A DNA stretch of 35,908 nt. Source: Deltaproteobacteria bacterium. Lineage in GTDB: Bacteria > Myxococcota_A > Polyangia > HGW-17. The notes beneath the pieces are model-generated. The model did no database searches. It worked only from the letters and a program-made list of their open reading frames with translations, and was not told the DNA's origin. Of this stretch, positions 7,720 through 16,098 are shown piece after piece; position 1 is the first letter of the stretch, and every line of letters starts with the position of its first letter. The DNA lies in contig JAFGWM010000058.1 in NCBI GenBank assembly GCA_016937155.1, positions 1 to 35,908 of the forward strand, given 5' to 3'. The position numbers were made by a program, and so were the translations under genes.

Positions 7720-9633
7720 ATGAAAAAAATACTACTTTTTTTAGCCATATTGCAGATGACTTTGTACTCCTGTTCATTTGACACCTCAGGTACCGGAGAT
7801 CCCTCTGTTCCCCATTGCGCTGATAACGGGCTTTCCGGAGATGAATCCGATGTGGATTGCGGTGGTTCAGATTGCGAACCATGCGCTGCCGATATGAACT
7901 GCAACGTGAATTCCGACTGCTTATCAGGATACTGCAATGATGACGGAAAGTGTTCATCAAGCCCAACATGTGATGATAATATCCTAAACAGTGATGAAAC
8001 TGACGTGGACTGTGGTGGTTCAAACTGTGAGCCATGTGGAGCAGGTCTACACTGTATTACTAATGAAGATTGCATAACATCCAACTGTGGAGATGGAGGA
8101 ATCTGTATATTTGATCCTCAGTGTACTGATCATGAGAAAAACGGTGACGAAACTGATGTGGACTGTGGTGGTTCACTTTGCTCACCATGTGAAGATACAA
8201 AAAACTGTCTGGAGGCATCTGACTGTTTAAGCGGTGTTTGTGGCACTGATGGAACCTGCGCTGCACCAAGCTGCAATGACACCGTAACAAATGGTAATGA
8301 AACCGATACTGACTGTGGGGGAGATGACTGTCCCAAATGTGAACCAGGTTATGACTGTATCGAAAATTCTGATTGCACCAGTGATGTTTGCGATGACAAT
8401 GTTTGTGCTGAGCCCAGTTGCAATGACACCGTAACAAATGGTAATGAAACTGATATTGACTGTGGGGGAAATGACTGCCCCAAATGTGAACCAGGTTATG
8501 ATTGCATCGAAAATTCAGACTGCACCAGTGATGTTTGCGATGACAATGTTTGTGCCGAACCCAGTTGCACTGACACCGTTTTAAATGGTACTGAAACCGA
8601 TATAGATTGCGGTGGAAATGACTGCCCCAAATGTGCTGTGGGTGATATTTGTATCTCAGGAAATGACTGTGAAGAAGGTGTTTGCGATGACACCTTACTC
8701 ACATGCAGTGAGCCTTTATGTACTGATTCAGTGGAAAATGGAATTGAAACTGATGAGGACTGTGGTGGAACTGAGTGCCCTCAGTGTGCCGTAGGGAAAA
8801 AATGTCTGGTAGATTCCGATTGTATCTCTCTTGTATGTGATCCTTCATCACATCTCTGTCTTAACAGCACCTGCACTGATTCAGTCATGAACGGCTATGA
8901 ATCAGATATCGACTGTGGTGGTATTTACTGCGAAGGCTGCCTGGAAGGTCAGAACTGTAATCTGGATATTGACTGTGCAAGTGGATACTGCAATTCAAAT
9001 GTCTGTGAGAACACAACAAGCTGCAAGGAACTGAAATCTCTTGTCCCTGCAACTACCAGTGGATTTTACCACATTCTCACCGAATCCGGCAGTCTGTTGA
9101 ATGTATACTGCCATATTGAAACTTCCGGCACATACACGCTTTATTACATAACAAGTGGAGCCACCACTTATAAAACATCAGATACAAACAGCTGCAATGC
9201 CATAGGACTTGAGCTTTTTACCCCTACACAGCGATTCCACTATAGCGCTGGTAGAGACTTCGCTCTTTCCCAGGGAATTTCAACCAGCGGTGATTTCATG
9301 GGTCCCCTTGGTATTTATAATCCAAATAATGGAGACGACCTTGGTATAAATCAGTGGTGTGAAGGCTCAAATAAATGCTGTCATAAAAAAATGATGGGTG
9401 GACTGGATGATGATACTGTAAGTGATGATGTATGCGGGTTTACTTCTCTGGCTGGAAACGAATTCTGGGCAAGTGATCTAACTTCTATTTCTGAGCCTAA
9501 TGGTGATTACGATGCCAACTGCTGGTTGAATTTCGACTGGGACAGCTCAGGAAATCTGAATCACTGGAATGATCAGGACTGTGATTATGGATATTCCAGT
9601 TATCTTTGTATGGCATATGATGATATTCCTTAA
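7720..9633 (+). CDS. Cys-rich repeat lipoprotein with C-terminal fibrinogen/lectin-like domain
   Basis: 637 residues. The signal peptide ends in lipobox LYSC (Cys18). Residues about 30-425 are eight tandem units of 48-50 residues with consensus C-x-D-x3-NG-x-ETD-x-DCGG-x2-C-x2-C...C...DC-x4-C...C, a repeat common in myxobacterial-type surface proteins and probably held by disulfides. Units 4 and 5 are nearly identical in DNA. The C-terminal ~200 residues open like a fibrinogen-related domain ('CKELKSLVPATTSGFYHI', 'VYCHIETSG'). They end in a Cys/Trp-rich segment resembling a C-type-lectin-like tail ('HWNDQDCDYGYSSYLC'). A surface adhesin or glycan-binding role is likely but unproven. GGAGG lies 7 bases before the ATG. 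Confidence 0.85.
   Translation: MKKILLFLAILQMTLYSCSFDTSGTGDPSVPHCADNGLSGDESDVDCGGSDCEPCAADMNCNVNSDCLSGYCNDDGKCSSSPTCDDNILNSDETDVDCGGSNCEPCGAGLHCITNEDCITSNCGDGGICIFDPQCTDHEKNGDETDVDCGGSLCSPCEDTKNCLEASDCLSGVCGTDGTCAAPSCNDTVTNGNETDTDCGGDDCPKCEPGYDCIENSDCTSDVCDDNVCAEPSCNDTVTNGNETDIDCGGNDCPKCEPGYDCIENSDCTSDVCDDNVCAEPSCTDTVLNGTETDIDCGGNDCPKCAVGDICISGNDCEEGVCDDTLLTCSEPLCTDSVENGIETDEDCGGTECPQCAVGKKCLVDSDCISLVCDPSSHLCLNSTCTDSVMNGYESDIDCGGIYCEGCLEGQNCNLDIDCASGYCNSNVCENTTSCKELKSLVPATTSGFYHILTESGSLLNVYCHIETSGTYTLYYITSGATTYKTSDTNSCNAIGLELFTPTQRFHYSAGRDFALSQGISTSGDFMGPLGIYNPNNGDDLGINQWCEGSNKCCHKKMMGGLDDDTVSDDVCGFTSLAGNEFWASDLTSISEPNGDYDANCWLNFDWDSSGNLNHWNDQDCDYGYSSYLCMAYDDIP
8272..8565 (+). repeat. Near-identical tandem 147-bp duplication inside the Cys-rich repeat gene
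   Basis: Copies 8272-8418 and 8419-8565 encode repeat units 4 and 5 of the lipoprotein. Both start TGCAATGACACCGTAACAAA and differ at only a handful of bases, mostly synonymous. The other six units are far more diverged. Unit 6 starts exactly one period later (8566). This indicates a recent in-frame duplication and possible copy-number variation between strains. Confidence 0.85.
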
Positions 9634-9645
9634 AATTGTTTAAAC

Positions 9646-10248
9646 TCAGTAGGGCTTCTGATACATATAATTTCCAGGGGGATCATAATTACATACAACT
9701 ATCATTTTCCCTTTGCAGATAGACTTCGCGCATCCTACTTTTGTTGTTTTTCTCCATACAACCTGGGTATAATGTCCTGATTTATACCAGTTTTTTGGAG
9801 TTAACTTTCCCCCTGTATAATATTTTTTTTCGCGTTCCCAGCTTTGAACAGCATCCTTGACAGTATACGCTCTTGCTGTTCCTGAAAATAAATTTTCACC
9901 ATATGGAGATTTCTTGCGATGCTGCAGTCGGCAAATCCCTTTAAGATTATCAGCCCACTTTTGAGCGTAGGCACTTAGTTTTGTTGACCATTTCATGGGA
10001 GGGATTTTAAGGGATTTCCTGATTCTATTATGTTCTGCAAGGATTGATGTGGCCTCAAGTGATGAGAGGCTTGAACCTGATTTAATAACAGCCTGAGGTT
10101 TCATCACCTTTTTTTCGGCTGTTCCCCTGGCATCAAAATCTCCCGAAGAAATAATGATCGGGTCAAATTGTTTCTTAATAACCGTATCACCGTGTTCAGA
10201 TGCGCATGCACCAAGAGTGATAAAGGACAAAATAATTATTTTTTTCAT
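9646..10248 (-). CDS. CAP/SCP (PR-1-like) domain lipoprotein
   Basis: 200 residues from the chosen start. Lipobox LGAC (Cys15) follows a short signal peptide, then a linker of about 50 residues. The CAP domain follows: 'LAEHNRIRKSL', 'MKWSTKLSAYAQKWADNL', 'YGENLFSG', 'SGHYTQVVWRKTTKVGCA' and 'VVCNYDPPGNYM'. The two His and two Glu positions that line the CAP cavity are present (HN.., GEN, WERE.., GHYTQ). Four Cys in the C-terminal half fit disulfides. Bacterial CAP proteins are secreted, with poorly defined roles in envelope, lipid or metal binding. The GTG/ATG-rich leader is resolved by GGAGG 6 bases before ATG 10248; an ATG four codons earlier lies across that site. Convergent with the Cys-rich lipoprotein gene, only 12 bases apart. 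Confidence 0.9.
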   Translation of the reverse strand: MKKIIILSFITLGACASEHGDTVIKKQFDPIIISSGDFDARGTAEKKVMKPQAVIKSGSSLSSLEATSILAEHNRIRKSLKIPPMKWSTKLSAYAQKWADNLKGICRLQHRKKSPYGENLFSGTARAYTVKDAVQSWEREKKYYTGGKLTPKNWYKSGHYTQVVWRKTTKVGCAKSICKGKMIVVCNYDPPGNYMYQKPY

Positions 10249-10358
10249 AGCTGCCTCCATTTCTGAATCGATAAAATATTCAGTCGTAATAGATCATACG
10301 AAATCCAGTTGCCAGGATTCAAAATGTACACCCCCTTTTTTCAAATTTGAATTATAAA

Positions 10359-11291
10359 TCAGTTCCTGTTGAGATCCATGATATATTTTGTAGCACTTAA
10401 TGCGGCAACGGTTCCATCACTTACAGCTGTTGTAATCTGCCTGTAGCGCTTTGCCCGGCAATCACCCGCTGCATAGACACCATCAACACTTGTTTTCAGG
10501 CTCTCATCAGTGACAATTTCACCGTAATCATTTAATTCCACAATGTTTTTCAGGAATTCCGTATTGGGGACATACCCGATAAAAAGAAAAACTCCACTCA
10601 CATCAAGTACAGTTTCCTCTCCGGTTCGTTTATTTGAACTTACAACTGAATTTAGTGATTCATCTCCCCTGAATTCCCTAATGGTCTGTTCCATAAGAAA
10701 TGAAATCCGTGGATTTTTCTTTGCTTCTTCAACAGCCCAGGGAAAAGCCTGAAAATGATCAAACTCGTGAATAACAGTAACTTTTGATGCATATCTGGTT
10801 AATTCTACAGCTTCCTCAAGAGCGCTGTTTCCTCCACCGATCACTGCGATTTCTTTATCGGTGAAGAAATCGCCATCACATGTTGCGCAGTATGAGATCC
10901 CCAGGCCCTTGAATCTTGTTTCAGATTCAAGACCCAGAGTACGTGGTTTCCCACCGGTGGCTATAATCACAGCATCGGATGTAAATGTTCCTTCGTCATC
11001 AACTTCAAAGGTTTTAAGGGATGAATCAATATCCATGGAATGAATGTCAGCTTGTGTAATTATGTCACAACCGAAACTTTTCGCCTGGTTCCTCATTGCC
11101 ATTCCAAGATCATGACCGGAGATTTCAGGGAAACCTGGATAATTCGCAATCATATGGCTGAGATTCATCTGACCTCCTGAAGTCCCATTATCCAGAATCA
11201 GTGTCTTTACCCGCGATCTAGCCAGATAAATTCCTGCTGTTAAACCTGCAGGTCCTGCACCGAGTATTATCACATCATATTTATTTTCCAT
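10359..11291 (-). CDS. trxB: Thioredoxin reductase (FAD, CATC active site)
   Basis: 310 residues. The FAD site 'GAGPAGLTAG' (11-20), redox dithiol CATC (135-138), second Rossmann 'GGGNSA' (152-157) and C-terminal FAD motif 'GVYAAGDCR' are all in place, at the usual length for low-molecular-weight TrxB. It reduces thioredoxin-type proteins. The pyridine-nucleotide domain reads 'VIHEFDHFQA' where NADPH-dependent enzymes have HRR-x3-R. The arginines that hold the NADPH 2'-phosphate are therefore missing, suggesting NADH or another donor. It is the last gene of the ArsR-led redox operon, 38 bases after the divergent thioredoxin gene. Function is confident; cofactor preference is inferred. Confidence 0.93.
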   Translation of the reverse strand: MENKYDVIILGAGPAGLTAGIYLARSRVKTLILDNGTSGGQMNLSHMIANYPGFPEISGHDLGMAMRNQAKSFGCDIITQADIHSMDIDSSLKTFEVDDEGTFTSDAVIIATGGKPRTLGLESETRFKGLGISYCATCDGDFFTDKEIAVIGGGNSALEEAVELTRYASKVTVIHEFDHFQAFPWAVEEAKKNPRISFLMEQTIREFRGDESLNSVVSSNKRTGEETVLDVSGVFLFIGYVPNTEFLKNIVELNDYGEIVTDESLKTSVDGVYAAGDCRAKRYRQITTAVSDGTVAALSATKYIMDLNRN

Positions 11292-11329
11292 GGAGATTCG
11301 CCTTTCAGTTTAAACTTTATTCAGTAAGT

Positions 11330-11674
11330 TCAGGCAAGTTTACTGTTAAGTATTTCCTTGATTTGTGCCTTTGTCTGAATACTTGTGGTGGCGGCAACAA
11401 CTTTTCCTTCATTGAAGTAAACGGTGAACGGGAGGCCGTTGAAACTTCTAACCTCAGGAAGGCTTCGGATGGTTTTCATAGCAGTTGGTGTATCGAAATC
11501 CATATCCATGAATTTAACATCACTGTATTTTGATGACAGATTATCCATGGCATCATAAACCGGAATACACATAGGACCCATTCTTCCGCAGGCCACAACA
11601 AATTTACCCTTTTCATCAATCAGTTTATTATATTCGTCCAATGATTCCAGATGAGGAAGATTCGTATTTAACAT
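11330..11674 (-). CDS. Divergent thioredoxin-fold protein (no CGPC motif)
   Basis: 114 residues. The fold is supported by 'KFVVAC' (strand), 'IPVYDAMDNLSSKY' (helix 2), 'VKFMDMDFD' (strand 3), the cis-Pro loop 'NGLPFTVYFNEGKVV' and a C-terminal helix. Where thioredoxin has W-CGPC-K the sequence reads 'CGRMGPMCIP'. By my alignment both catalytic Cys are Met (MGPM), with Cys29 three residues before and Cys36 just after. It could use this C-x6-C pair, or act as a non-catalytic partner. AGGAGA lies 6 bases before the ATG. Placed between groES and trxB, so it is a candidate substrate of the reductase. Confidence 0.85.
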   Translation of the reverse strand: MLNTNLPHLESLDEYNKLIDEKGKFVVACGRMGPMCIPVYDAMDNLSSKYSDVKFMDMDFDTPTAMKTIRSLPEVRSFNGLPFTVYFNEGKVVAATTSIQTKAQIKEILNSKLA

Positions 11675-11734
11675 TTTATTTCTCCTAAGTTTTTTGTTTA
11701 TTGTTTATAAATTTTTTTGCTGTTACATATTATT

Positions 11735-12022
11735 TCAATCAGGAATCGCATCTGTTTCAACAATTTTCCCCAGTATCTCACTCCAGGAAATAAGTCTCAC
11801 TTTTTCACCTTCGACTTCAAATTCATTTCCTGCATATTTTTTTACAATCACCAGATCTCCAACAGCAATTCCTCTATCCTTCAGTTCATCGCTCACAGCA
11901 GTCACTATTCCCTGCTCAGGTTTTTCCTGCATGTTCTCGGGTAGATAAATTCCAGCTTCGTTTTTCGGTGATACTTCCACAGATTTTAAAACAACATAGT
12001 CATTTAAAGGTGTGATTGTCAT
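11735..12022 (-). CDS. groES: Co-chaperonin GroES
   Basis: 95 residues, the normal GroES length. It starts 'ITPLNDYVVLK', has the mobile GroEL-binding loop 'NEAGIYLPENMQEKPEQG' with the hydrophobic Ile-Tyr-Leu tripeptide, then 'VGDLVIVKKYAGNEFEVEG' and 'RLISWSEILGKI'. It should cap a GroEL ring to close the folding chamber. No groEL follows; flanking genes are thiol-redox proteins in the same orientation, 16 bases after the Trx/Grx gene and about 60 before the next. A second, stress-specific GroES beside the main groESL locus is the likely explanation. A GGAAAGG site precedes the ATG. Confidence 0.92.
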   Translation of the reverse strand: MTITPLNDYVVLKSVEVSPKNEAGIYLPENMQEKPEQGIVTAVSDELKDRGIAVGDLVIVKKYAGNEFEVEGEKVRLISWSEILGKIVETDAIPD

Positions 12023-12038
12023 AAAATTTCCCTTTCCT

Positions 12039-12632
12039 TCAGTTACCTGAAATTCCTAATAATGCGTTAATTTTTGGTTTATCAAATCCCACAACCCATG
12101 CACCGTTTATACTTATCTGAGGAACCCCTCTCTGTCCAGTTTTCCTCACCATAAGTTGTGCTGCATCAGGATTGTTCTCTACATTTATTTCTTTGAATCT
12201 TACGCCCTGTTTATTGAAATAATCCTTTACCCTGACGCACCAGGAACATGAAGAAGTTGTATAAACATCAACCTGTTTTGGCTTTTCTTTTTTCCCGTCC
12301 TTCGGTTCTGATGCAGATTCAGGATGATTAATCATACCCTGGTAGGCACTGACTGTCTGAAGACCCGGAAGCATGTGACGAACGTTGTTATCTTCAACAC
12401 TGATAACCATAGGAACATCATAAACTCCATATTTTTTATGAATATCTTTTGTCTGGGCCACATCAACCTGAAAAACTCTAACTTCAGGATTCTTATCACA
12501 GAATGATTCAAACACGGGAAGTGCTTCTCTGGAAATTCTGGAAAACTCACCAAAAAAACCAATCAGAAACAATCCTTTAAACCCATCAGTCAGTAATTCC
12601 AGTTGTTCAAGACTTTCTACTGTAGAAACCAT
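12039..12632 (-). CDS. Thioredoxin-fold / glutaredoxin-domain fusion
   Basis: 197 residues from ATG 12632. The N-terminal domain (about 1-105) has thioredoxin architecture: 'LFLIGFFGEF', helix 'REALPVFESF', 'EVRVFQVDVAQ' and cis-Pro in 'YDVPMVI'. The CGPC position reads Ser-Arg-Ile-Ser, so it is probably redox-dead. After a Lys/Glu-rich linker comes a glutaredoxin/NrdH-like domain: 'VDVYTTSSCSWCVRVKDYF' with CSWC, 'INVENNP', 'RGVPQISING' and 'VGFDKPKINALL'. This domain can form and reduce disulfides. ATG 12632 is preferred over the ATG two codons earlier because AAGGAG lies 6 bases upstream of it. The ArsR stop is 2 bases before it, so translation is coupled. Confidence 0.87.
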   Translation of the reverse strand: MVSTVESLEQLELLTDGFKGLFLIGFFGEFSRISREALPVFESFCDKNPEVRVFQVDVAQTKDIHKKYGVYDVPMVISVEDNNVRHMLPGLQTVSAYQGMINHPESASEPKDGKKEKPKQVDVYTTSSCSWCVRVKDYFNKQGVRFKEINVENNPDAAQLMVRKTGQRGVPQISINGAWVVGFDKPKINALLGISGN

Positions 12633-12634
12633 AC

Positions 12635-12970
12635 TCATCTCCTTGATTTTTTATCATCTTCCGGGCAGATTCCTTCGGAAGAATTCATAGAAAGATTATT
12701 TAAACTATCCAAAACCATTTTAACCAGACCGGGATTCGCAAGAGAGTATTCCCTGCAGCGCCCACTACTGGAACATTTAAGTAGACCGTGCTTTTTAATT
12801 ATCGACAGTTGTTTTGAGACAACTGCTTGAGCACCACCCAGTTCAGACACAAGATCACTGACTATGGAACTTTTATTTAGCAACTGAACTATAATACCCA
12901 GTCTCTGACTGTTTGATAAAACAAATGCCATCTCAGATATTTGTTCCAGATTATAACTACAGGATTCCAT
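12635..12970 (-). CDS. ArsR/SmtB-family transcriptional regulator, Cys-rich
   Basis: 111 residues. The winged helix-turn-helix is clear: 'LSNSQRLGIIVQLL', 'VSDLVSELGGAQAVVSKQLSIIKKHGLL', then the wing hairpin up to 'REYSLANPGL'. ArsR proteins are dimeric repressors released by metals or thiol oxidation. Four Cys are present, at 4, 66, 72 and 102; the pair 66/72 lies in the wing ('LLKCSSSGRC'), a possible metal or redox switch. The textbook ELCVC arsenic site is absent. It is the first gene of the redox operon; AGAGG sits about 8 bases upstream of the ATG, and a promoter with operator-like symmetry lies just before it, so autoregulation is likely. Confidence 0.88.
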   Translation of the reverse strand: MESCSYNLEQISEMAFVLSNSQRLGIIVQLLNKSSIVSDLVSELGGAQAVVSKQLSIIKKHGLLKCSSSGRCREYSLANPGLVKMVLDSLNNLSMNSSEGICPEDDKKSRR

Positions 12971-12997
12971 ATCACAGACCTCTCACATACCGAAATT

Positions 12998-13032
12998 GAT
13001 ATATATACGATTCGATATATGTCAATACATCG
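12998..13032 (-). promoter_or_regulatory. Promoter and operator-like inverted repeat of the redox operon
   Basis: On the minus strand TTGACA (13025-13020) is followed after 16 bases by TATATC (13003-12998), a near-ideal sigma-70 promoter whose start would fall about 20 bases before the regulator ATG. An inverted repeat, CGATATAT-N4-ATACATCG (13013-13032, arms matching 7 of 8), covers the -35 box, and CGA-T-TCG (13008-13014) sits in the spacer. This fits repression by the ArsR product. No binding data; inferred from position and symmetry. Confidence 0.65.
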
Positions 13033-14358: not shown

Positions 14359-15921
14359 TTACTTAAATAACAAAGAAACGAAGGATATATCTTCTTTTTG
14401 GAGCCATGGAGGAAGTGATACCGGAAGTGTAACCAAGGAAGAATGGGACTGAGTAATACCAAACACTTTTTCGTGGAAAATTTCTTTTCCTCTACTGTCT
14501 GTTAAAGTAAGAGTACATTCAGTTCCATTTTTTAACAATGGTGATGAATTTTTAGCCCATTTGTAACTCATGTCCTTGAGATTCACCAGTAGAACATTTT
14601 CAGTCTTTTGAGACAGACTTTTTCCAAGACTCCGCACTGCAATTACTCTTGTAAATATTGCATCATAATTATAATCACTTACCCACTGGTCATCACAATA
14701 TCCCATATAATCATTTGTTACATTTGGATCCAGGAAAGTATCATCGTTAATGTTATATCCCCACACACCAGTTTTTCCACCACTGTATGGATATGACCAG
14801 TCAACACCTATTAAAGTACCGCAGTTTGTATGCCCACGACCATGCATGTGCCCCATTTCATGGAGTAAAGTCCACACCCACCTTTCACCACTGAATCCCA
14901 CTCCTGTGCCAACACGATATGAACCATTTTCAGGACTTGTCACTTTGTAGCTTTGACCTGTTGTACATGTACCTGAACAGTAATCCTCAAAAGTTTCATC
15001 AGGGTTCACCATTGCATAGTAGTAAACATCCTGTGCTGCATTATCCTCTTCTTTAAGAATCCGGAGATATTCATTCATATCACCAAAATCAAAGGATGAA
15101 GGGTTCTCACCTGGCAGGGGCCAGGAAATATAGTCACGAACAGTGAGATTAAGATTTGCAACAGGATAAAGCATAAGAAACATTTCTTCAATTAACTGAA
15201 GCTGCTCGGCACTTACATCCGGCATTCTACCACTGCCGTCTATATTGTATTCCACCGGAACAATTACAAGATTAACTCCACCGCCATCATAGAGTGCCCC
15301 AAGTTCGAATGGAACACCATCTGAAGGGAAACGCCCTTCATGAGAGACCCCGGGATCAATTTCAGGCATTTCAGGTGAGGTAAATCTGAGATACCAGGTT
15401 GTATCAGGAGTTATGTTAGTTCCATCAACTGAAAAACTGAATGACGGATCATCAGTTTCAGAAGGTGTCTCGGTGCTTAAAAACTTTGAAACCGTATAAT
15501 TCTTTTCAATCCCTGATGACCTTAATGTGAGAACTGCAGTAACTGTCTGTGGCTGCCACTGCTCATCAAGACTCACATTTACAGTAAAAAGTGCATCCCT
15601 CTCGGTTATAATCGGAGCATTCAATTCAGAAACTTCTAATCCTTCAAGTATCAGAGGAATCTCAACAGCCTGAAATACACTCACACCATCAACTTTTATA
15701 CCACTCAAAAGCCTGTTATAACTTTCAGTGGTGTTGTTGGTTTGTACATCCTCCTCAACATCACCATCTGATATAAGAGTATCACCTGAAGAATCCATAA
15801 AGTCTGTGGCAGCATCATTTTCATTATTGTTTGTAGTGGTGTTATTGGTTTGTGATGAAGAATCATCACTGCAACCGAATAAGACTAAAACAGCTGCAAA
15901 TATGATTAGAGATTTTTTCAT
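14359..15921 (-). CDS. Metzincin-type zinc metallopeptidase lipoprotein (M66-like)
   Basis: 520 residues. Lipobox LFGC (Cys17), then Asp/Ser and an Asn/Thr-rich linker. A beta-rich domain ('LLSGIKVDGVSVFQAVEIPL') follows, of a kind often found before M66-like catalytic domains. The catalytic motif HEMGHMHGRGH (about 354-364) is a full HExxHxxGxxH zinc site with Glu as base, continuing TNCG as in M66 (StcE) enzymes. A Met about 40 residues later in 'NDYMGYCDD' fits the Met-turn. It probably cleaves proteins or glycoproteins at the cell surface. ATG 15921 has AGGTG 8 bases upstream and directly starts the signal peptide; an ATG seven codons earlier is possible. Family call firm, substrate unknown. 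Confidence 0.87.
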   Translation of the reverse strand: MKKSLIIFAAVLVLFGCSDDSSSQTNNTTTNNNENDAATDFMDSSGDTLISDGDVEEDVQTNNTTESYNRLLSGIKVDGVSVFQAVEIPLILEGLEVSELNAPIITERDALFTVNVSLDEQWQPQTVTAVLTLRSSGIEKNYTVSKFLSTETPSETDDPSFSFSVDGTNITPDTTWYLRFTSPEMPEIDPGVSHEGRFPSDGVPFELGALYDGGGVNLVIVPVEYNIDGSGRMPDVSAEQLQLIEEMFLMLYPVANLNLTVRDYISWPLPGENPSSFDFGDMNEYLRILKEEDNAAQDVYYYAMVNPDETFEDYCSGTCTTGQSYKVTSPENGSYRVGTGVGFSGERWVWTLLHEMGHMHGRGHTNCGTLIGVDWSYPYSGGKTGVWGYNINDDTFLDPNVTNDYMGYCDDQWVSDYNYDAIFTRVIAVRSLGKSLSQKTENVLLVNLKDMSYKWAKNSSPLLKNGTECTLTLTDSRGKEIFHEKVFGITQSHSSLVTLPVSLPPWLQKEDISFVSLLFK

Positions 15922-16098
15922 TTTCAACACCTGTGGTTTCATTATCTTTATCTTTCAGGTTGATTAACCGTCCTGAATTTATCCTTATAACACAAATTTT
16001 GATACTCAGCAAGTTGAGCATAAATGACCGGTAACCCACAGGAAACTGATTTGTTTTCAAAATATTTATCTTAATATATCAGCTGGAATTGTGAAATA

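Follow-up and report, generated by a model that had tools for sequence, protein, structure and literature searches.

Why should a gene for the co-chaperonin GroES, with no groEL beside it, lie among genes for thiol redox proteins? This question is raised by contig JAFGWM010000058.1 of a Deltaproteobacteria bacterium (Myxococcota_A), which we analyzed over its full 35,908 nucleotides (the window); this stretch is contig C21, complete, of a draft genome of 4.1 Mb. Five open reading frames follow one another head to tail on the minus strand, encoding an ArsR-type regulator, a fusion of a thioredoxin-like domain (Trx*) to a glutaredoxin domain (Grx), GroES, a thioredoxin-fold protein (TrxL) and a thioredoxin-reductase-type flavoprotein (TrxB). 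That these genes form a module and a regulon is well supported by their recurrence in distant bacteria and by a shared operator. As to what the module does, we read it, with a probability of roughly one half, as an ArsR-controlled alternative thiol-repair system with a dedicated co-chaperonin, made as one transcriptional unit.

All five genes described in an earlier note on this DNA were recovered. The spacings in operon order are a 4-base overlap, followed by gaps of 16, 60 and 38 bases. Four of the products exceed the cut-offs of curated families, TrxL being the exception.

12635..12970, minus strand: arsR, ArsR/SmtB-type regulator; HTH_5 28.3 bits (cut-off 22); wing cysteine pair C-x5-C (KCSSSGRCREY)
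12039..12638, minus strand: Trx*-Grx, pseudo-thioredoxin/glutaredoxin fusion of 199 amino acids; TIGR02196 96.0 bits (cut-off 88.55); AlphaFold2 (AF2) model
11735..12022, minus strand: groES, second, divergent copy of 95 amino acids; Cpn10 PF00166 69.8 bits (gathering score 21.1)
11330..11674, minus strand: trxL, thioredoxin-fold protein of 114 amino acids without CxxC (CX6C); AF2 predicted local distance difference test (pLDDT) score 90.6; below all Pfam and NCBIfam cut-offs
10359..11291, minus strand: trxB, thioredoxin-reductase-type flavoprotein; TIGR01292 (TRX_reduct) 361 bits (cut-off 343)

Conservation of the gene set and its operator

A search of 84,980 genomes with the fusion as query returned 80 loci. 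They belong to Myxococcota, Bacteroidota, Caldanaerobacter subterraneus, Fermentibacteraceae/Sabulitectum, Neomarinimicrobiota and genomes labelled Chlorobiota and Delongbacteria, or about six phyla. In 68 of the 71 loci with a full-length fusion, groES lies directly downstream on the same strand, at a median gap of 26 bp. The other three comprise a locus that ends 989 bases downstream (L063), one without groES (L059) and one in which groES is broken by a stop and a change of frame (L119); the broken copy (L119:2200-2560) is either a pseudogene or an assembly error. The earlier note would have regarded a dedicated module as unlikely if groES were adjacent to these genes in one genome only, or if it were the sole groES and expressed independently. 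Adjacency in 68 of 71 loci across phyla rules out a one-genome coincidence, and a separate housekeeping groES is present on contig C66. As a background, 59 genomes of relatives were compared by eye, and single-domain Grx matches did not stand beside a Cpn10 match except for one pair in genome G010.

The identical five genes occur in identical order in the family members G004, G006 and G007. In the same-genus genome G001 the operon is split between two contigs, the first holding arsR-Trx*Grx-groES and the second trxL-trxB. Gene order is arsR-fusion-groES-trxL-trxB in Myxococcota and trxL-trxB-fusion-groES in Bacteroidota, and many loci of both phyla have trxL-trxB in one cluster with fusion-groES. 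TrxL served as an independent entry and proved rare, with matches in 16 of 296 genomes from a set around a Bacteroidota genome and in 13 of 282 from the phylum of the window, nearly all with E < 1e-47. In 29 of 31 loci from this search trxB adjoins trxL, some of the Myxococcota loci being identical to those from the fusion search. In five Bacteroidota loci that the fusion search had not returned, a Grx-groES pair stands beside trxL-trxB, and the Grx is a single domain without Trx*. A phage or plasmid origin was rejected, as TrxL is absent from viral contigs and plasmids, viral contigs gave one Grx-only match, and the matches in phages are weak and restricted to the Grx part (NrdH-like where annotated). 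Bacteroidota loci often contain additional genes for thioredoxins with WCxPC or CKPC, as in L085, L092, L096, L098, L104 and L108; they stand before, after or between fusion and groES, and some of the products begin with a hydrophobic stretch near the N-terminus.

Upstream of arsR lies a candidate operator.

12998..13023, minus strand: operator-like inverted repeat GACATATATC-GAATC-GTATATATATC, with a left arm that overlaps TTGACA (13025-13020)

The arrangement GACATATATC-N-GTATATATATC upstream of arsR is common to five genomes (that of the window and those of loci L058, L060, L062 and L064). The pattern GACATATATCN{4,9}TATATR matched a single site in each of four of these genomes and two sites in G001, with 0 matches for the reversed-pattern control; the window holds a single match, with 0 expected. 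The first site in G001 precedes the arsR half, and the second ends 63 bases before trxL. Both halves of the split operon thus share the operator, which is strong evidence for a five-gene regulon. The repeat was not seen at the Fermentibacteraceae/Sabulitectum loci or at other Myxococcota loci. ArsR is the likely repressor and sensor acting on this predicted operator. It exceeds the HTH_5 cut-off, fails to reach those of the metal-sensor families CmtR, TsoR and HTH_metalloreg, and has its wing C-x5-C pair conserved in all 15 homologous entries. A selenoprotein/TsoR operon was considered and discarded, since ArsR scores far under the TsoR cut-off and a search of the open literature yielded no matching paper. 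A generic scan of promoters and terminators gave no signal above shuffles, and a search for RNA elements found none.

The extra GroES and its tail

Two elements of the module GroES bear on its function.

11909..11974, minus strand: mobile loop with hydrophobic tripeptide (GIYLP), from the alignment of module GroES
11738..11767, minus strand: C-terminal tail KIVETDAIPD; a tail is present in every complete module GroES and in 0 of 60 canonical ones

Elsewhere, the genome holds the housekeeping copies, namely groES (C66), a single groEL (C14), a TrxB with HRRNEFRA (C45) and several ordinary thioredoxins. The earlier remark that the co-chaperonin gene has no adjoining groEL is true at the locus, but the housekeeping groES and groEL are also unlinked, so that a missing groEL neighbour is in itself no sign of a special GroES. 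At least two Cpn10 genes were found in 46 of 50 host genomes, and in most the only groEL is immediately preceded by a canonical groES. Since the hosts normally retain a canonical groES apart from the module, and in general one groEL, the module GroES is an extra lid; that it is itself the housekeeping GroES is ruled out for the window and for these 46 genomes. In G010, a genome of the same order (L041, G010:C95:24575-25132), and in G106 (L131), a Grx-linked groES is the only GroES found, and the housekeeping function may there fall to this copy. A third Cpn10-like protein, longer than the others (a frame of about 130-170 amino acids, about 40 bits), is encoded away from groEL in many genomes with the module, e.g., G069:C58 and G073:C53.

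The mobile loop had been described as intact, and indeed G-hydrophobic3-P is kept in 67 of 70 module GroES, the remaining 3 being rows shortened at the chosen start codon. The kept loop is compatible with binding to GroEL. A tree of 134 rows (70 module, 60 canonical, the own housekeeping copy and three linked to Grx only) over 87 columns places the module GroES on one side of one branch, with a Shimodaira-Hasegawa-like approximate likelihood ratio test (SH-aLRT) value of 94. They extend about 8-10 residues past the canonical end (DILAxxE), with tails such as KVVETEEI or KIVETDAIPD. The tail pattern scored 63 of 70 module GroES versus 0 of 60 canonical ones; the rest are shortened rows or near-misses with a tail visible by eye. 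All 8 GroES linked to a Grx without Trx* lack the tail (L041, L131, L135, L209, L211, L216, L218 and L220). This co-occurrence suggests that the tail may contact Trx*.

Altered redox proteins and neighbouring genes

The redox proteins of the module keep some of the canonical motifs and replace others.

12531..12542, minus strand: SRIS, residues 33-36 of the fusion, SxxS replacing the thioredoxin CxxC (alignment, n = 72)
12237..12248, minus strand: CSWC, active site of the Grx domain; CxxC in 71 of 71 fusions
11567..11590, minus strand: CGRMGPMC, TrxL residues 29-36; invariant in 17 of 17, with CGR[MN]GPMC in further family members
10878..10889, minus strand: CATC, redox-active site of TrxB (sequence motif)
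10746..10769, minus strand: HEFDHFQA, replacing the motif HRRDxFRA for the 2'-phosphate of reduced nicotinamide adenine dinucleotide phosphate (NADPH), from the alignment of module TrxB

The CSWC and CATC motifs noted before could be assigned to the Grx domain and to TrxB, respectively. A Trx/Grx fusion exists as claimed, exceeding the cut-offs of the YruB-type glutaredoxin family TIGR02196 and of the Thioredoxin family (24.6 versus 23.5 bits), but its Trx domain has no CxxC. Serine occupies the Cys32 position in 60 of 72 aligned sequences and the Cys35 position in 67, cysteine is found at neither position in any of them, and cis-Pro76 is present in all 72. Judged by its sequence, the Trx domain is a catalytically dead pseudo-thioredoxin. 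The AF2 model of the fusion (pLDDT 91) shows two confident Trx-fold domains, and the linker between them, residues 110-116, is modelled with low confidence. Of 26 host genomes, 7 gave a match above the cut-off of the glutathione synthase family, and only two of these were strong; given this scarcity, Grx is probably not run by glutathione in most of them.

The description of TrxL as a divergent thioredoxin holds for the fold, as the AF2 model is confident and Foldseek gives a template modelling (TM) score of about 0.75 to thioredoxins. It does not hold for family membership, since TrxL passes no thioredoxin cut-off (PF00085 14.3 versus 23.5 bits, TIGR01068 20 versus 96.8 bits) and carries the CX6C motif CGRMGPMC in place of CGPC. 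In the model, C29 is located in a strand end and C36 immediately before the next helix. TrxL appears to represent an undescribed thioredoxin-fold family.

The module TrxB exceeds the TIGR01292 cut-off and has a CxxC site, and HRRDxFRA is absent. Every module TrxB with a readable region shows H[EQ]F[DE]xFQ[AG] instead, while the other TrxB of the genome has HRRNEFRA. According to the criteria for NADPH use by TrxB-type reductases (PMC5627308, PMC10880999), the motif marks the module TrxB as not a standard NADPH enzyme. By analogy to TR3 of Desulfovibrio vulgaris, NADH may be its electron donor.

No extra neighbour gene recurs widely around the fusion loci. In both genomes of the genus, the next gene downstream of the module encodes a secreted CAP-family protein (window 9646-10260; L036:3301-3987), even in the one where trxL-trxB sit elsewhere. 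The window also encodes a cysteine-rich secreted protein with repeats of the type NGxETDxDCGGxxCPxC and without a Pfam match (7720-9633), and a putative secreted metalloprotease with a weak Peptidase_M66 match (21.9 versus 20.6 bits) and the sequence HEMGHMHGRGH (14359-15942).

Proposed working, rivals and known systems

In the working that we propose, ArsR would repress its own unit through the palindrome, which covers the -35 region. Attack on the wing cysteine pair by a thiophile or an oxidant of thiols would free the operator, a step that we consider probable. TrxB, using flavin adenine dinucleotide (FAD) and its CATC site and fed by NADH or another non-NADPH donor, would reduce TrxL and/or the Grx domain; such a transfer is likewise expected, with some reserve. 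Damaged proteins of the cytosol would then have their disulphides or mixed disulphides reduced by TrxL and Grx. Trx*, its redox chemistry lost but its fold and cis-Pro kept, would have a binding role and be docked by the C-terminal tails of the extra GroES, which we put forward tentatively. The GroES heptamer would form an alternative lid on the housekeeping GroEL, for which the chances appear even, and the reductase would be brought to the folding chamber, where reduced clients would be refolded. Joint inheritance in very different bacteria points to a single unit in which damaged proteins are both chemically repaired and refolded. The earlier note had inferred a unit of this kind, in which GroES would recruit the housekeeping GroEL to clients of the redox proteins under oxidative or metal stress; our results support its dedicated module and regulon, and the refolding of oxidised clients, the stress and the recruitment stand as predictions. 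In its boldest form, the proposal is a redox-coupled chaperonin, in which GroES lid tails would carry the Trx*-Grx enzyme onto GroEL and physically join repair and refolding in several phyla of mostly uncultured bacteria; this version is somewhat doubtful.

Several points weigh against the thiol-repair reading. Many fusion loci, among them most of those from Bacteroidota, have no ArsR, TrxL or TrxB nearby, so that the common core is Grx-GroES only. No peroxidase or other oxidant-stress gene was found to recur in the neighbourhoods. The reduction of TrxL by TrxB is not certain, as TrxL is without CxxC, and the GroES tree carries moderate weight because it has 87 columns only. The co-occurrence of tail and Trx* may come from shared descent, the Grx-only cases perhaps representing few lineages. 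Finally, the contacts of GroES with GroEL and with Trx* are predicted ones, as are the coupling of GroES to redox chemistry and the inducing stress.

The rival explanations overlap in part with this reading. The genes could be co-regulated only, as a stress regulon of independent parts, a thiol-reducing system and an extra GroES that means a larger supply of co-chaperonin under the same stress, with no physical coupling. All parts are ordinary stress proteins, the shared operator shows a regulon, and GroES has a normal mobile loop, which is in line with this idea. However, the tightest and most constant pair in distant phyla is Trx*-Grx and groES, even without ArsR, TrxL and TrxB, and mere dosage would need neither a separate GroES clade nor a tail that tracks the Trx* domain; we regard co-regulation only as rather unlikely. 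In a response to thiophilic metals or metalloids (As, Sb, Cd, Hg), the metal would be bound by the cysteine pair in the ArsR wing and by the CGRMGPMC loop of TrxL, which is rich in Cys and Met; poisoned thiols would be freed by the redox proteins, and misfolded proteins rescued by GroES. An ArsR/SmtB regulator with a conserved cysteine pair and an almost invariant CX6C motif with two methionines would suit such a role, which is nonetheless quite improbable given that ArsR falls under the cut-offs of known metal sensors and that the neighbourhoods show no recurring gene for an efflux pump, an arsenate reductase or metal binding.

Iron-sulphur cluster or persulphide/selenium chemistry, with Grx handing clusters or sulphur to chaperonin-held apoproteins, is brought to mind by Caldanaerobacter subterraneus (L067:6607-11552), where the fusion-groES pair lies directly upstream, on the same strand, of sufC, SufB/D-like genes and a cysteine-desulphurase-like gene. 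It would also fit that most of the 26 host genomes have no glutathione synthase match. Yet suf genes do not recur at other loci, the Grx site is a dithiol CxWC and Grx is linked to a flavin disulphide reductase, all of which makes this explanation very improbable.

Extra GroES genes are usually unexplained. Here, such a gene belongs to a regulon, keeps the same partner throughout and encodes a distinct tail, and its purpose thereby becomes testable. If a thiol reductase does dock on the lid, bacteria that have no oxidising compartment for folding would link disulphide repair to folding by the chaperonin. The analysis also brings out the TrxL family, a pseudo-thioredoxin conserved across phyla and a class of reductases without the NADPH motif. 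The earlier statement that no described system with this exact gene order was known is in agreement with our search of 5.4 million open papers in full text (subscription papers lying outside it), in which no description of the gene set, the CGRMGPMC motif or the pairing with a YruB-type Grx was found. Each part is of a known kind; no earlier account appears to exist of the combination, the GroES tail, the SxxS pseudo-domain or TrxL.

Compared with canonical GroES (Cpn10, PF00166), the module GroES shares fold family and mobile loop but differs in its separate clade, its C-terminal tail, the lack of an adjoining groEL and its linkage to redox genes. Protein disulphide isomerase (PDI)-type proteins that contain non-catalytic Trx domains, such as the b domains, resemble the fusion in that a catalytic Trx-fold domain is accompanied by a Trx fold lacking CxxC. 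The fusion, in contrast, is bacterial, has no evident signal peptide, uses Grx as catalytic domain and carries SxxS, and no homology is claimed. Cp34/Cp9 of Clostridium pasteurianum represent a YruB-type Grx with an NADH-dependent TrxB-like enzyme. The likeness to the module lies in a YruB-family Grx near a TrxB-like flavoprotein; the module Grx, however, has a pseudo-Trx as its fusion partner and forms a pair with groES, and no peroxiredoxin is nearby. TrxA-TrxB systems (low-Mr TrxB, TIGR01292) likewise place an FAD/CxxC reductase beside a thioredoxin-fold protein, with HRRDxFRA and WCGPC in place of the H[EQ]FDxFQA and CGRMGPMC of the module, which adds groES and ArsR. TR3 of Desulfovibrio vulgaris lacks the HRR motif, has a reported preference for NADH and works with the atypical Trx3 as a second system beside TR1/Trx1 (PMC5627308). 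Its Trx-binding site is CxQ, compared to GLG in the module TrxB, and the paper mentions no GroES (PMC5627308). Likened through its published description, TR3/Trx3 provides a precedent for a dedicated pair of a TrxB and an odd thioredoxin.

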